DNA from: Nonomuraea angiospora
Lineage (GTDB): Bacteria; Actinomycetota; Actinomycetes; Streptosporangiales; Streptosporangiaceae
Assembly: GCF_014873145.1 (NCBI RefSeq)
Contig: NZ_JADBEK010000001.1
Location: forward strand, 4,712,001 to 4,776,000
Direction: 5' to 3'
Length of the DNA stretch: 64,000 nt
Made by a program: the position numbers and the translations under genes
Shown here: piece after piece, positions 3,444 through 9,088 of the stretch
How positions within the stretch are numbered: position 1 is the first letter of the stretch
Layout of the letters: each line of letters opens with the position of its first letter
The notes under the pieces: model-generated
Seen by the model: only the letters and a program-made list of their open reading frames with translations
Database searches by the model: none
Told to the model about the DNA's origin: nothing

Positions 3444-3650
3444 GGCCCCGCACCGACCATCGGTGCGGGGCCGCTCGCGTACTTCCCAGAAGACCCCGCA
3501 CTGACCATCGGTGCGGGGCCGCTCGCGTACTTCCCAGAAGACCCCGCACTGACCATCGGTGCGGGGCCGCTCGCGTGCTTCCCAGAAGACCCCGCACTGA
3601 CCATCGGTGCGAGGCTGCTCGCGTGCTCCGCGCTGGCCATCGGCGCGGGG
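3444..3650. repeat. 48-bp tandem repeat with GC hairpin in each unit
   Basis: The stretch between the accD6 stop and the DUF3145 stop holds no gene. It is a tandem array: the core ACCATCGG recurs at about 3456, 3504, 3552 and 3600 (exact 48-bp spacing), with a shorter degenerate fifth unit at 3636. Each unit can fold as CCCCGCAC...GTGCGGGG around a 9-nt loop, followed by CGCTCGCGTACTTCCCAG or a close variant. The array lies between convergent genes, so the hairpins could act as stacked transcription stops. Confidence 0.85.
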
Positions 3651-4230: not shown

Positions 4231-4405
4231 CGGACCTCCCGTTTCGGTACGAGGTGCGCCTTCCCCAACGGCCTCGCCCCGGGATGATCACAAGTGACTA
4301 GGGAGAGACTACCGTCGGTCGCTATCCGGCACCAGAGGGGGGCCATACCAACTTGGTGCGGGAGTGGCATGTGACAGTTGGACCAGCGGGGAAACATACC
4401 GCCTC

Positions 4406-5419
4406 ATGGAAATTGAATCTGTCGGCGCGTCGCTCATCCGGCCTGGTCAGGTGCTGACCGACCGCGCGGCGCTGTCGGCCGTCTCGCGCTGGACCCAGGC
4501 GGTCTCGGAGGCGGACGGCGTCTGCGTGATCCACCTGTCGCCCGGCGCCGACCCCTGCGAGATCACCGCCGAACTCCGCGATCGGGGCCTGCGGGCATCG
4601 CCGAACCACGTGTTCCGCGGCCAGCCCCTGTTCTTCGGTGGTCCCGCGTCCAGACCCTTCCCCACCCCGCCCATCGCCCACAAGCCGGGGCGCTCCCGCT
4701 CGGGCGTGGTCGTCGGGCTGCTCGACACCGGCATCGCCAAGCACCCGTGGTGGTCCGGCAGCGACTGGTACGGCGAGACCGCCCCGGAGTGCGCCGACGC
4801 GACGGAGGGCGCGCAGGCGGGGCACGGCACGTTCATCGCGGGCCTGCTGACCAGGCGGGCGCCGGGCGCGGAGCTGAGCGTGCACCGGGTGCTCGACGGC
4901 GACGGCATCGGCGACGAGGCGACCGTCGTCCGCGCCCTCCACCGCATGCGCGAGCGCCCCCCGCAGGTGCTCAACCTCTCCTTCGGCGGCCACACCTACG
5001 ACGACCGCCCGCCACCGCTGCTGAGCGACGCCCTCGCCGCGCTGCCCGACACGGTGGCCGTGGCCTGCGCCGGCAACACGGGGTCCGACCGGCCGTTCTG
5101 GCCGGCGGCGCTGCCCTCCGTGGTGGGCGTGGCCGCAGTGGACGCCTCGGAGGAGCAGCGCGCCCCCTACTCCGGCTACGGCATCTGGGTGGACGCCTGC
5201 GCCCGCGGCGACTGGCTGACCAGCAGTTTCCTGGACGGCGGCGACTTCGCGGGATACGCGGCGTGGAGCGGCACGTCGTTCGCCACCGCCCTGGTGGCGG
5301 GCGCCGTCGCGGACGGGGCCAAGAGCGAGCCGGCCAAGGAGGTCGCCAGACGGCTCTTCGAGTCCGAGCGGGCCCGGCAAATTCCCGATCTGGGAGTTCT
5401 GATCCCGGCGAGTCTGTAG
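4406..5419 (+). CDS. cytosolic S8 subtilisin-like serine protease
   Basis: A 337-residue subtilase. The catalytic triad is complete: Asp107 in GLLDTGIA, His140 in GHGTFIAG and Ser291 in SGTSFATALVAG; the oxyanion Asn is in CAGNTGSD. It has no signal peptide and no membrane segment, so it should act in the cytosol; about 70-90 N-terminal residues precede the catalytic core and could act as a short pro-region. The ATG at 4406 was chosen; a GTG at 4364 would extend it by 14 residues. It is the first gene of a four-gene cassette with an ECF sigma factor (73 bp downstream), a small protein and a TPR-CHAT protease. Known family: subtilases are broad endopeptidases. Inferred role: a protease inside a signalling or cell-fate cascade, either activated by or acting on the CHAT protein or the sigma/small-protein pair. 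Confidence 0.9.
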   Translation: MEIESVGASLIRPGQVLTDRAALSAVSRWTQAVSEADGVCVIHLSPGADPCEITAELRDRGLRASPNHVFRGQPLFFGGPASRPFPTPPIAHKPGRSRSGVVVGLLDTGIAKHPWWSGSDWYGETAPECADATEGAQAGHGTFIAGLLTRRAPGAELSVHRVLDGDGIGDEATVVRALHRMRERPPQVLNLSFGGHTYDDRPPPLLSDALAALPDTVAVACAGNTGSDRPFWPAALPSVVGVAAVDASEEQRAPYSGYGIWVDACARGDWLTSSFLDGGDFAGYAAWSGTSFATALVAGAVADGAKSEPAKEVARRLFESERARQIPDLGVLIPASL

Positions 5420-5492
5420 AGTTTACGCTCAGTCCTCAGCCAATCACGGGGAGGCATGATCGCCTACTCGTGCCGGACGGAAGGAGGCCGCG

Positions 5493-6020
5493 ATGCGCGA
5501 TTCAGCGGAGCTGCTCGCAGCGGCGGCCGAGGGCGACCGGACGGCCTGGGACGAGCTGGAGTCCAGGTTCGGGCCGCGCATGTGGGCTGTGGCCCGCGCG
5601 TGCGGCCTGAGCCCCTCCGACGCGGCGGACGCGGTCCAGGGTTCCTGGTTGCGCCTGCTGCAGCACCTCCCGAGCATCAGGGATCCGGCCGGGGTGGGGG
5701 CCTGGCTCGTGACGACCGTGCGCCGTGAAGCCCTCCTGCTGCTGCGCAAGGATCGTCCCGGGGTCTCCTCCTTCGAGGTCGTCGAAGACCCCGACCCGGA
5801 GTCCGCCGTCCTGGAGGCCGACGGCCGCCGCCTGCTCTGGAAGACGGTCTCCGACCTGCACGAGCCCTGCCGCTCACTCCTCCAGCTGGTCGCCGTCGAC
5901 TTCGGCAACCAGCAGATGGCGTCACGGCTCGGACTGCCCGTGGGCAGCATCGGTCCGACCAAGGCCCGGTGCCTGGAAAAACTGCGCACTCTGATCTCGA
6001 TACAGGAGACAGCGCAATGA
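5493..6020 (+). CDS. ECF-type RNA polymerase sigma factor
   Basis: A 175-residue sigma-70 family factor with only regions 2 and 4. Region 2 spans roughly residues 10-80 (DAADAVQGSWLRLLQHL corresponds to the -10 recognition helix area), and region 4 roughly 115-165, with a helix-turn-helix at MASRLGLPVGSIGPTKARCL. GGAAGGAGG precedes the ATG. Its TGA overlaps the ATG of the next gene (ATGA), so the sigma factor and the small protein should be made in step. There is no recognisable classic zinc-binding or membrane anti-sigma factor next to it, so control probably comes from the small downstream protein and/or the proteases of the cassette. Its target promoter is unknown. Confidence 0.92.
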   Translation: MRDSAELLAAAAEGDRTAWDELESRFGPRMWAVARACGLSPSDAADAVQGSWLRLLQHLPSIRDPAGVGAWLVTTVRREALLLLRKDRPGVSSFEVVEDPDPESAVLEADGRRLLWKTVSDLHEPCRSLLQLVAVDFGNQQMASRLGLPVGSIGPTKARCLEKLRTLISIQETAQ

Positions 6021-6463
6021 TCAACGATGAGTATTTCCTGGCAGCCCTCCGGTTGGCCTCCGGGAACGACCCGATCCCCGGCCACGTGTCCGCCGCCGCG
6101 CGCGACGCCTACCGGTTCCGGGTCCCCGGAGGGGTGACGGCCGACCCCACCGACCGTGGCGCCGCCGGCGGCGTACGCGATGACGAAGGCTCCCATCTGG
6201 TGCGCTTCGTCGTGGCGGGCCTCACCTTCGACCTGGAGATCACGATCGGCGACGGGCTCATCGACGTGGCGGGGCACGTCTCCCCGTACCCGGGGGAGGG
6301 CGCGCTCATCGACGTGCGCACTCCCCATCTGACGCTCACCCGGCGGATCGCCGGCTCCGGCGACTTCGCCGCCACCGGCCTGCCGCCGGGCTGGCTGAGC
6401 GTGGTCTGCCACCGCCCCGGCTACAAGCCCGTCCAGACGCGGTGGGTGCGCATCCGGCCCTGA
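6017..6463 (+). CDS. small beta-rich protein coupled to the ECF sigma factor
   Basis: A 148-residue protein without signal peptide, transmembrane segment or cysteine cluster. Residues 1-35 form a predicted helical head (YFLAALRLASG, then VSAAARDAYRFR); residues about 60-148 are a predicted beta sandwich (LVRFVVAGLTFDLEI, DFAATGLPPGWLSVVCH, ending TRWVRIRP). The start overlaps the sigma factor stop by 4 bp. I recall proteins of this outline recurring between an ECF sigma factor and a CHAT gene in actinobacteria, but I cannot confirm that by search. Best guess: an anti-sigma or adaptor protein that holds the sigma factor and is cut or released by the protease(s) of the cassette. The function is not established. 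Confidence 0.7.
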   Translation: MINDEYFLAALRLASGNDPIPGHVSAAARDAYRFRVPGGVTADPTDRGAAGGVRDDEGSHLVRFVVAGLTFDLEITIGDGLIDVAGHVSPYPGEGALIDVRTPHLTLTRRIAGSGDFAATGLPPGWLSVVCHRPGYKPVQTRWVRIRP

Positions 6464-6489
6464 CGCGACCCTGATCCCCTTGCCGACCA

Positions 6490-6518
6490 GCCGAGAGAGC
6501 CGCGTCGCTGCTCTCGGC
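6490..6518. terminator. small hairpin between the sigma operon and the CHAT gene
   Basis: GCCGAGAG at 6490-6497 pairs with CTCTCGGC at 6511-6518 around a 13-nt loop. It lies after the small-protein stop and before the CHAT start, so it may attenuate read-through from the sigma operon into the CHAT gene. The stem is only 8 bp and has no T tract, so termination is uncertain. Confidence 0.4.
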
Positions 6519-6520
6519 CG

Positions 6521-6559
6521 TTTCCGTACCAAGGCACCGAGTTTCCACCCCAAGGCACC
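6521..6559. promoter_or_regulatory. 21-bp spaced direct repeat upstream of the CHAT gene
   Basis: TTTCC-NN-CCAAGGCACC occurs twice, starting at 6521 and 6542. The spacing of 21 bp is about two helical turns, which suits side-by-side binding of a regulator or polymerase contacts. The second copy ends 3 bp before the ATG at 6563 and no clear Shine-Dalgarno sequence lies between. Function is inferred only from position and repetition. Confidence 0.4.
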
Positions 6560-6562
6560 CAT

Positions 6563-9088
6563 ATGAGCGCATCACCAGAGCGACCCGACGACCGAGATCC
6601 ACTCGTCGTGGCGGCCGAGGCCGCTGTCATGCGCTCCCTGGTCGATCCCGACCACGCCCTGCGCGCCGCCCGTACCGTGCTCTCCTCCGCCCGCCGCGCC
6701 GGCGACCCCGAGGCCGAGGCCGTCGCGCACAGGGCCATCGCGCTGGCCGCCCGCGAGCTCGGCGATCTGCGCAGCGCCGAGCACCACCTCCGCGAGGCCA
6801 TCGCCATCCCGGGCGCCCCGCCGGAGCGCATCGCCCAGGCCCGGCTCTCCCTCGTCACCGTACGCACCGAGCTCGGCCACCCGATCCAGGCCCTGCGCGT
6901 GGCCGCCCTGGCCTGGGCCCACCTCTCGCCGCTCGACCGCGCCAAGCTCGACACCCAGCGCGCGGTCGCGCTGGCCCGGCTCGGCCGCCACCAGGAGGCC
7001 ATCGCCTCCTGCGACCGCGCGCTGCGGGTCCTCGTGACCGCTCCCGGCACCATCGACGACCGCCGGTTTCTCGCGGGCGGGCTGCTCAACCGCGGTCTCG
7101 TCCACTCCTACCGCGGCGACTGGGACGCCGCCATGCGCGACCTCACCGCCTGCCTGGAGATCTCCCGGCAGGCGGGGCTGCGGCACCTGGGACGCCTGTC
7201 CGCCGCCAACCTGCCTTTCCTCGCGGTACGGCGGGGCGACATCGCGGGGGCGTTCAAGCTCTACCGCGAGGCCGAGGACACCCTGTTCGGCTTCCCCGAG
7301 CGGCTGGCCACGATGCGGGCGGACTTCGCCGGCGCTCTGCTGGCCGCCCATCTGCCGGGCGAGGCCAGGGCCATGCTGAGCCTGGCCGTACCCGATCTCG
7401 AGGCGTCGGGGGCGCACGTGGCGCTGGCCGAGGCCCGGCTGAAGCTGGCCCAGGTGGAGCTGCTGACCGGTGACCCGCGCCGGGCGCTGGAGGTGGCCGA
7501 GCAGGCGGCCGGCGAGCTGGCCGCGCAGGACCGGACGTCCTGGCTGCCGCTGGCCAGGGAGGTCGTCCTGCGGGCCCGGCTGACGCTCGAACCCGTCACG
7601 CCCGCCCTGGTCGCCGACCTGGTCGCGTGCGCGGACGAGCTGGAGGACGGCCTGGCGCACCTGGCGGGCGCCGCCGCGCTGCGGCTGGTGGCGGCGGAGG
7701 CGGCGCTGGCCGTGGACGACCACCCGACGGCCTCGGCGCAGCTGGCCCTGCTCACCGAGCACGCCGAACGCGAAGAGCCCTTCGCCCCGATCGGCACCCG
7801 GCTCACCCCGCGGGACTCCGAGTCCGCGCGGGAGGCGGAGATCCCGGTGCCGGTACGGCAGCACGCGCTCGCCCTGGAGGCGTCGCTGCAGGAGGACGCC
7901 ACGGGGGCCTTCCGGGCGGTCCGCGTCGGGCTGTCGGAGGTGAGCGAGCGGGTGGAGACGTTCGACGATCCATCGCTGCGCGCCCACGCGGCCAGGGCCG
8001 GGGAGCGGCTGGCGGGGTTCGGGCTGGGGCTGGCGGTGCGGGGCGGGTCCGCCGGGGAGGTGTTCGAGTTCGCGGAGCGGTGGCGGGCGGTGGCCGCGCC
8101 CTCGCACGCGTGCTCGCTGGTGGATCCCGAACGGGTGCGGGCGGAGCTGGGCTCCGGGGCGCTGGTGGAGTTCGTGGCGGACGGGGACGCGCTGCTGGCC
8201 GTGCTCGTCACCGGCGAGCGGGTGACGCTGCGGCGGGTGGGTGACGTCCGGCAGGTCAAGGAGGCGATCGTCCGGCTCCGTTACGCGCTGCGCCGCCAGT
8301 GCTCCGCGACGCCGCAGCCTCGCTGCGACCTGGAGAGCGTCGAGGTGGCGGCGCTGGAGGTCGAAGGGCTGCTGCTGCGCCCGCTCCTCGCCGAGCTGGG
8401 TGACGGGCCGCTGGTGGTGGTGCCGGTGGACGCCCTGCACACGCTGCCGTGGGGGGCGCTGCCGTGCCTGCGCGAACGCCCGGTCAACGTGGTCGCCAGC
8501 GCGGCCGGCTGGGTGCGGGCCCGGGAGCTGGCCCGCGCCCGCCGGAGCGGCCCGCCGGCGGTGGTGGCGGCGGCCGGGCCGGCCCTGGCGCACGCGCACG
8601 CCGAGGTGCGCAGCGTGCTCGCCTGCCATCCGGACGGGCGCGAGGCGCCGGGGCGCACCGGGCCGGTGCTGGAGGCCCTGGCGACGGCCGACGTCCTGCA
8701 CCTGGCCGCACACGGGGTCTTCCACGCGCGCAGCCCGCTGGTGTCCGGAATCACGCTGGAGGACGGCTCGCTGATGGCCTACGACCTGCTGGACATCCCG
8801 CGGTCGCCGGGGCTGGTGGTGCTGTCGGCGTGCAACTCGGGGATGTCGCGTACGCCGGTGGAGGGGGCGCCGCTGGGGCTGCCCGGCACGTTCCTGGCCA
8901 AGGGGTCGGCGTGCGTGGTGGCGGGGCTGGTGCCGGTGCGGGACGAGGGGGCCTGGGCGCTCATGAGCATGTTCCACGAACTGCTGGTGGCGGGCCGGCC
9001 CCCGGACGCGGCCCTGGCCTCCGCCGCCGCCAAGACCGGCGAAACCGGCTTCGTCTGCTTCGGCGCGGGCGACCATCCGTTGTACTAG
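6563..9088 (+). CDS. TPR-CHAT caspase-like protease
   Basis: An 841-residue cytosolic protein. Residues about 15-450 are a helical tetratricopeptide array (repeats such as RLGRHQEAIASCDRAL); residues about 580-841 form a CHAT domain, a clan-CD caspase relative. The catalytic dyad is intact: His717 in HLAAHGVF and Cys757 in VVLSACNSGMS. TPR arrays normally sense a partner or ligand and gate the protease, as in the TPR-CHAT (Csx29) subunit of the type III-E CRISPR Craspase. It is the last gene of a cassette with a subtilase, an ECF sigma factor and a small protein, all on the same strand. The ATG at 6563 is the only good start. Inference: it is the trigger of a proteolytic circuit that frees the sigma factor or activates the subtilase. 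Substrate and trigger are unknown. Confidence 0.9.
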   Translation: MSASPERPDDRDPLVVAAEAAVMRSLVDPDHALRAARTVLSSARRAGDPEAEAVAHRAIALAARELGDLRSAEHHLREAIAIPGAPPERIAQARLSLVTVRTELGHPIQALRVAALAWAHLSPLDRAKLDTQRAVALARLGRHQEAIASCDRALRVLVTAPGTIDDRRFLAGGLLNRGLVHSYRGDWDAAMRDLTACLEISRQAGLRHLGRLSAANLPFLAVRRGDIAGAFKLYREAEDTLFGFPERLATMRADFAGALLAAHLPGEARAMLSLAVPDLEASGAHVALAEARLKLAQVELLTGDPRRALEVAEQAAGELAAQDRTSWLPLAREVVLRARLTLEPVTPALVADLVACADELEDGLAHLAGAAALRLVAAEAALAVDDHPTASAQLALLTEHAEREEPFAPIGTRLTPRDSESAREAEIPVPVRQHALALEASLQEDATGAFRAVRVGLSEVSERVETFDDPSLRAHAARAGERLAGFGLGLAVRGGSAGEVFEFAERWRAVAAPSHACSLVDPERVRAELGSGALVEFVADGDALLAVLVTGERVTLRRVGDVRQVKEAIVRLRYALRRQCSATPQPRCDLESVEVAALEVEGLLLRPLLAELGDGPLVVVPVDALHTLPWGALPCLRERPVNVVASAAGWVRARELARARRSGPPAVVAAAGPALAHAHAEVRSVLACHPDGREAPGRTGPVLEALATADVLHLAAHGVFHARSPLVSGITLEDGSLMAYDLLDIPRSPGLVVLSACNSGMSRTPVEGAPLGLPGTFLAKGSACVVAGLVPVRDEGAWALMSMFHELLVAGRPPDAALASAAAKTGETGFVCFGAGDHPLY

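Follow-up and report, generated by a model that had tools for sequence, protein, structure and literature searches.

The window analysed here, a 64,000-nucleotide stretch of the Nonomuraea angiospora genome (contig NZ_JADBEK010000001.1, positions 4,712,001 to 4,776,000), carries four genes on its forward strand at positions 4406-9088: an S8 subtilase (S8; 4406-5419; 337 aa; Pfam Peptidase_S8 E 5.3e-25), an extracytoplasmic function (ECF) sigma factor (5493-6020; 175 aa; Pfam Sigma70_r2 E 2.6e-10), a small protein (SP; 6017-6463; 148 aa) and a TPR-CHAT protease (CHAT; 6563-9088; 841 aa; Pfam CHAT E 2.3e-30 plus TPRs). The host genome is a single contig of 13.09 Mb. These four genes are a real conserved module, beyond chance adjacency, in which S8 is an optional part and CHAT looks like the hub. 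The original prediction had named the four same-strand genes, which coordinates and Pfam confirmed, and had read them as a proteolytic signaling circuit; that interpretation was partly supported.

The gene set itself is already in print. The section of PMC8999054 on the actinobacterial sigma factor group ECF54 (citing Huang 2015 and Casas-Pastor 2021) proposed proteolytic control because carboxypeptidase, subtilase, and CHAT proteins sit in the gene context. Subtilase and CHAT genes are both present at the window locus, and this context suggests that the window sigma factor belongs to ECF54. The "carboxypeptidase" of that review is probably SP, which is weakly like a carboxypeptidase regulatory domain. 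Compared with the ECF54 account, the small protein was no enzyme by any match found, S8 was optional, and the genes formed two pairs. No experimental study of the module was found in the open-access literature, subscription papers lying outside the search. New in this analysis is the suggestion of CHAT as hub, of two pairs, and of S8 as an optional latent arm.

Conservation and arrangement of the module

SP was used as the search handle because it was the most specific of the four parts; counts of ECF, S8, and CHAT per locus are therefore conditioned on SP. SP was present in all 36 Nonomuraea genomes examined. The 27 named loci comprised 26 labelled Nonomuraea and one [Actinomadura] parvosata; ECF, SP, and CHAT occurred in all 27 and S8 in 26 (absent in N. 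maritima, L047). All ten more distant SP loci contained S8, ECF, and CHAT. Across the class, the SP profile matched in 132 of 393 genomes.

A larger set of 157 SP loci consisted of 37 earlier loci and 120 among the matches listed, mostly top-ranked, with several stretches stopping at contig ends. ECF lay directly 5' of SP on the same strand at 153 of these loci. CHAT was present at 133, S8 at 116, and the full four-gene set at 112, arranged in eight orders and orientations. Recurrence in related genomes, which the original prediction had mentioned, was borne out, and a lack of conservation, named there as refuting, did not occur. In the reverse direction, SP followed 93 of the best 100 ECF matches. 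A phylum sample, which also includes class members, contained SP in 31 of 296 genomes; of 20 SP loci from genomes beyond the class sample, 16 had ECF beside SP and 8 had all four genes. The grouping exceeds chance adjacency because of the presence of SP in all 36 Nonomuraea genomes, the eight arrangements, and the eight complete sets outside the class sample.

Some observations count against a strict association. The presence counts include many related genomes, and kinship inflates any P value. Seven of the best 100 ECF matches had no SP next to them, and the four of these loci that were fetched all lacked SP. Among the 20 SP loci from beyond the class sample, four (L239, L247, L253, and L255) had no ECF, S8, or CHAT match above the thresholds used.

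Two further observations concern arrangement. The window's own genome holds a second module (L099; C1:211500-228000) in another order: CHAT divergent, then S8, ECF, and SP. ECF sigma factors near this group occurred at L235, L236, L237, and L238 without SP, S8, or CHAT nearby.

Two gene pairs and loss of the subtilase

Among those 393 class genomes, 122 had a CHAT match and 124 an ECF match, at unequal cut-offs (1e-3 for SP, 1e-33 for ECF, and 1e-90 for CHAT). SP and CHAT occurred together in 120 genomes, SP without CHAT in 12, and CHAT without SP in two. Two of the 12 "SP alone" genomes (G163 and G181) were cut-off misses, because CHAT adjoins SP at their loci (L144 and L189).

In family f21, CHAT was unlinked from SP in all 17 SP genomes, at more than 1 Mb in four single-contig genomes and on separate contigs in the rest. 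CHAT loci were fetched for eight of the 17, and S8 was beside CHAT in all eight, one being a fragment at a contig end. As both pairs are unlinked yet kept, the module divides into ECF-SP and S8-CHAT. This family bears on the alternative that the genes are chance neighbors or a frozen operon with no joint function. The fixed Nonomuraea gene order is explicable by inheritance alone, but neither the retention of both unlinked pairs nor the variety of orders and orientations fits, leaving this alternative strongly disfavored and barely credible.

S8 is an optional part of the module. The S8 profile gave no match at 1e-25 in 21 genomes with SP and CHAT (20 of the window's family and that of N. maritima); four positive controls (G000, G148, G193, and G305) all matched at this cut-off. 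ECF adjoined SP in 17 of the 21 (16 of 20 in the window's family, plus N. maritima); in the remaining four (G208, G284, G408, and G415) the SP loci were not fetched and ECF fails 1e-33. N. maritima (L047 7198-7480) has lost S8 but still carries its final codons and, ahead of ECF, the conserved block, as if S8 had been recently deleted.

Protein distances were compared across 86 four-gene modules, with truncated modules dropped and Nonomuraea represented by the window and four other modules. Partial correlations, which carry no species-tree correction, were highest for S8-CHAT (0.57), followed by ECF-SP (0.43), SP-CHAT (0.41), ECF-CHAT (0.31), S8-ECF (0.09), and S8-SP (0.00). CHAT thus appears as the hub, and S8 co-varies with CHAT and not with SP or ECF. 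The pattern agrees with the ECF-SP and S8-CHAT pairs and places CHAT centrally. The original prediction had also allowed the subtilase to be cut so as to act on the sigma factor; that route is disfavored because S8 co-variation is limited to CHAT.

The same values bear on the published ECF54 proposal, in which the proteases would degrade the sigma factor itself, with no anti-sigma factor and with SP as an adaptor. It is stated for ECF54 in section 3.3 of PMC8999054, where AntA/ClpXP is the worked example. We consider it unlikely here: direct ECF-S8 co-variation is almost nil, S8 is dispensed with in 21 genomes, and SP, there of peptidase type, has a weak regulatory-domain match and none to the other families named there.

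The sigma factor and the small protein

The sigma factor was identified by Pfam Sigma70_r2 and TIGR02937, both above cut-off (52.5 bits for TIGR02937, cut-off 42.9). Its stop codon and the SP start codon share ATGA (6017-6020), an overlap already seen in the original prediction and now found in all 27 Nonomuraea-type loci (L031-L057). Adjacent, overlapping genes fit a sigma/anti-sigma pair, and SP is a putative inhibitor of the sigma factor, either a soluble anti-sigma factor or a co-factor.

The window SP had only a sub-threshold Pfam match, to CarboxypepD_reg (21.5 bits, cut-off 32.3), a domain matched weakly (E 0.01 or better) by 39 of 92 SP members. Its structural model contained two N-terminal helices (residues 4-15 and 22-33) and a beta-sandwich. 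The SP profile found no relative with E <0.4 among solved structures, a set not checked for Csx30. Arg54 (6176-6178) was conserved in all 158 rows of one alignment and in at least 90% of a second (A2); in the Nonomuraea protein it lies in a loop with pLDDT <50. Clan CD proteases frequently cleave after Arg, and for that reason Arg54 is a candidate cut site, no more.

The subtilase and its linker

The catalytic residues of S8 are D107 (4724-4726), H140 (4823-4825), and S291 (5276-5278), as previously assigned, and were invariant in 117 of 117 relatives. The AlphaFold2 model (pLDDT 93.4; linker residues 76-78 <50) predicts a prodomain fold preceding the S8 domain with its D/H/S residues, the arrangement of a pro-subtilisin. 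In this model the N-terminal domain (residues 1-71; 4406-4618) resembles the inhibitory prodomain of pro-subtilisins, and S8 is accordingly modelled as a latent zymogen. The predicted lack of a signal peptide held for S8, where a hydropathy scan (no dedicated predictor was run) found no such stretch in 114 of 116 N-terminal parts. Both this and the linker, with its conserved GQPL..GGP or tandem peptides, differ from pro-subtilisins such as subtilisin E and Tk-subtilisin.

The linker motif in the window is GQPLFFGGP (residues 72-80; 4619-4645). Of 121 close S8 relatives, 120 have the form GQPL(F/W/Y)(F/W/Y)GGP, which is characteristic of this close group; other module S8s carry CPGDEP-like linkers. 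Among distant S8 relatives of type B (the best 120 of 971), at least three tandem copies of a short peptide preceded the catalytic Asp in 47 of 120 and followed it in none. Linker arrays were present in 17 of 141 S8s from CHAT or SP loci, with none in the control; an x-P-x-x core fits 11 of the 17, and two (L164 and L205) are plain low complexity. Other repeats departed from an x-P-aromatic pattern: GYGDGV (L197 and L202), PQSK (L218), and GVTKTI (L234). Repeat units of equal peptide, the only units compared, had silent DNA differences only, in nine loci. Lineage-specific tandem peptides between prodomain and catalytic domain were seen at L197, L202, L204, L208, L209, L216, L244, L248, L254, L257, and L258.

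One speculative reading, which we regard as quite improbable, is that the linker may be a peptide cartridge read by TPR-CHAT, either docked by the TPR domain or released and then bound by it. The cartridge would be a single G-x-P-hydrophobic-aromatic element (GQPLFF in the window) or a tandem lineage version (such as GNPAYQ, NPFTRS, GHPITG, or NPYWKVP). If true, it would be a multi-copy peptide signal carried by one protease zymogen for another protease.

The conserved or repeated linker peptides also favor an alternative order of events, in which S8 acts upstream in sensing or processing and its prodomain linker or freed peptides activate CHAT, which then acts on SP. S8-CHAT is moreover the strongest co-varying pair and remains linked where ECF-SP lies at another place. 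Lineages that have lost S8 nevertheless retain CHAT and SP, and S8 therefore cannot be the sole input; we consider this order unlikely.

The TPR-CHAT protease and CRISPR-associated systems

The CHAT domain (about 8369-9028) contains H717 (8711-8713) and C757 (8831-8833), the pair previously assigned, which was invariant in 127 of 134 relatives; the other seven were fragments gapped at these positions. TPR and CHAT were the only domains found in the protein by Pfam. The CHAT profile reached solved CHAT proteins (8rot, E 3.8e-8; 7x8a, E 5.4e-5). The matched structures 7x8a and 8d9f are Craspase entries.

As described in PMC10028731, in type III-E systems Csx29 cuts Csx30, which inhibits a sigma factor. 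Craspase (Csx29, Csx30, and CASP-sigma in that account) and the module share a TPR-CHAT protease with a His/Cys pair, an ECF-type sigma factor, and a third protein, and the S8-less genomes keep these same three kinds of part. Unlike Craspase, the module has an extra subtilase, no RAMP protein in the genome, and no Csx30-like match found for SP. The Craspase comparison of the original prediction thus stands for parts, residues, and the three-part set of S8-less genomes, but not for homology of SP to Csx30. Its description of the locus as CRISPR-free held as regards RAMP proteins: PF03787 gave no matches in the window's own genome and matches in four of 14 control genomes, this being the cas family tested genome-wide. 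The SAVED-CHAT cascade and CalpL/CalpT/CalpS, as presented in PMC11229360, share a cascade-starting CHAT protease and the freeing of a sigma factor by a protease that cuts its anti-sigma factor; they use SAVED domains and cyclic oligoadenylates, whereas the protein here showed no domains besides TPR and CHAT.

An anti-phage or cell-death role of Craspase type appears improbable. CHAT proteases are described in CRISPR type III systems (PMC10028731, PMC11229360), and PADLOC gave weak matches to a subtilase (E 2.2e-6), IetS, and BovA. The absence of RAMP, the occurrence of SP in all 36 Nonomuraea genomes, and a fixed neighbor speak against it: a DUF3145 gene adjoins the module in 25 of 27 Nonomuraea-type loci, the other two beginning at or near a contig end. 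With such conserved chromosomal places and PADLOC matches that were weak only, neither a defense role nor the cell-fate role envisaged earlier found support.

Sequence elements around the module

The intergenic region between the divergent DUF3145 gene and S8 (4231-4405) holds an 11-bp palindrome, ACCAACTTGGT (4347-4357). The spacer was near-identical across the genus in 26 aligned upstream regions, the window included, and the palindrome, ACCAA(G/C)TTGGT, varied only in its center base (G or C). A share of this conservation may be owed to DUF3145.

A conserved block on the forward strand spanning the S8 stop codon, TCTGTAGAGTTTACGCTCAGT (5413-5433), was almost invariant in 28 aligned sequences, S8-less N. 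maritima among them. It is likely part of the ECF-SP promoter. Its counterpart was not found in other genera.

Elsewhere in the window, three to four tandem copies of a 48-bp repeat unit, palindromic at its core, lie at 3446-3627, where the accD-like and DUF3145 genes converge. In several other families a DUF3071 gene was near ECF-SP or S8-SP (L143 by Pfam; L136 and L147 by sequence likeness).

Proposed mechanism

The model that we tentatively prefer, at somewhat less than even confidence, is a cytosolic, chromosomally inherited signaling module of two pairs linked through the CHAT protease. In the first pair, ECF and SP would be produced by overlapping translation, SP keeping the sigma factor inactive; in the second, TPR-CHAT would accompany S8 produced as a latent pro-subtilisin. 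A trigger sensed by the TPR part would switch CHAT on, and active CHAT would cleave SP, perhaps at or near Arg54, freeing the sigma factor. In most lineages CHAT would also cut the linker of the S8 prodomain or unseat it, and the subtilase would then act as a second arm. The computed part comprises the conserved module with its intact active sites, the pro-subtilisin-like model of S8, the division into two pairs, the S8-less lineages, and CHAT as the center of co-variation; all cleavage events, the trigger, the regulon, and SP as an anti-sigma factor are inferred.

Several results weigh against this model. The co-variation that places CHAT centrally is uncorrected for the species tree, and S8 loss events are few, because most S8-less genomes belong to one family. 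No anti-sigma Pfam domain matched at E 0.01 among the 92 SP members, and fold comparison of the SP model returned a common beta-sandwich and nothing telling. The role of Arg54 may be structural, as poor modelling of its loop was restricted to the Nonomuraea SP.

Implications

Most known examples of sigma factors released by a protease with no membrane anti-sigma factor involved come from CRISPR type III systems. An old, vertically kept, CRISPR-free module in Actinomycetota would indicate a possible origin of such circuits. If the cartridge reading were true, two intracellular proteases coupled by a peptide would together form a switch for a sigma factor. The identity of the ECF54 "carboxypeptidase" is probably corrected. 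ECF54 sigma factors gain a concrete, testable order of events, for which the natural variants, S8-less or split in two, are ready-made experiments.
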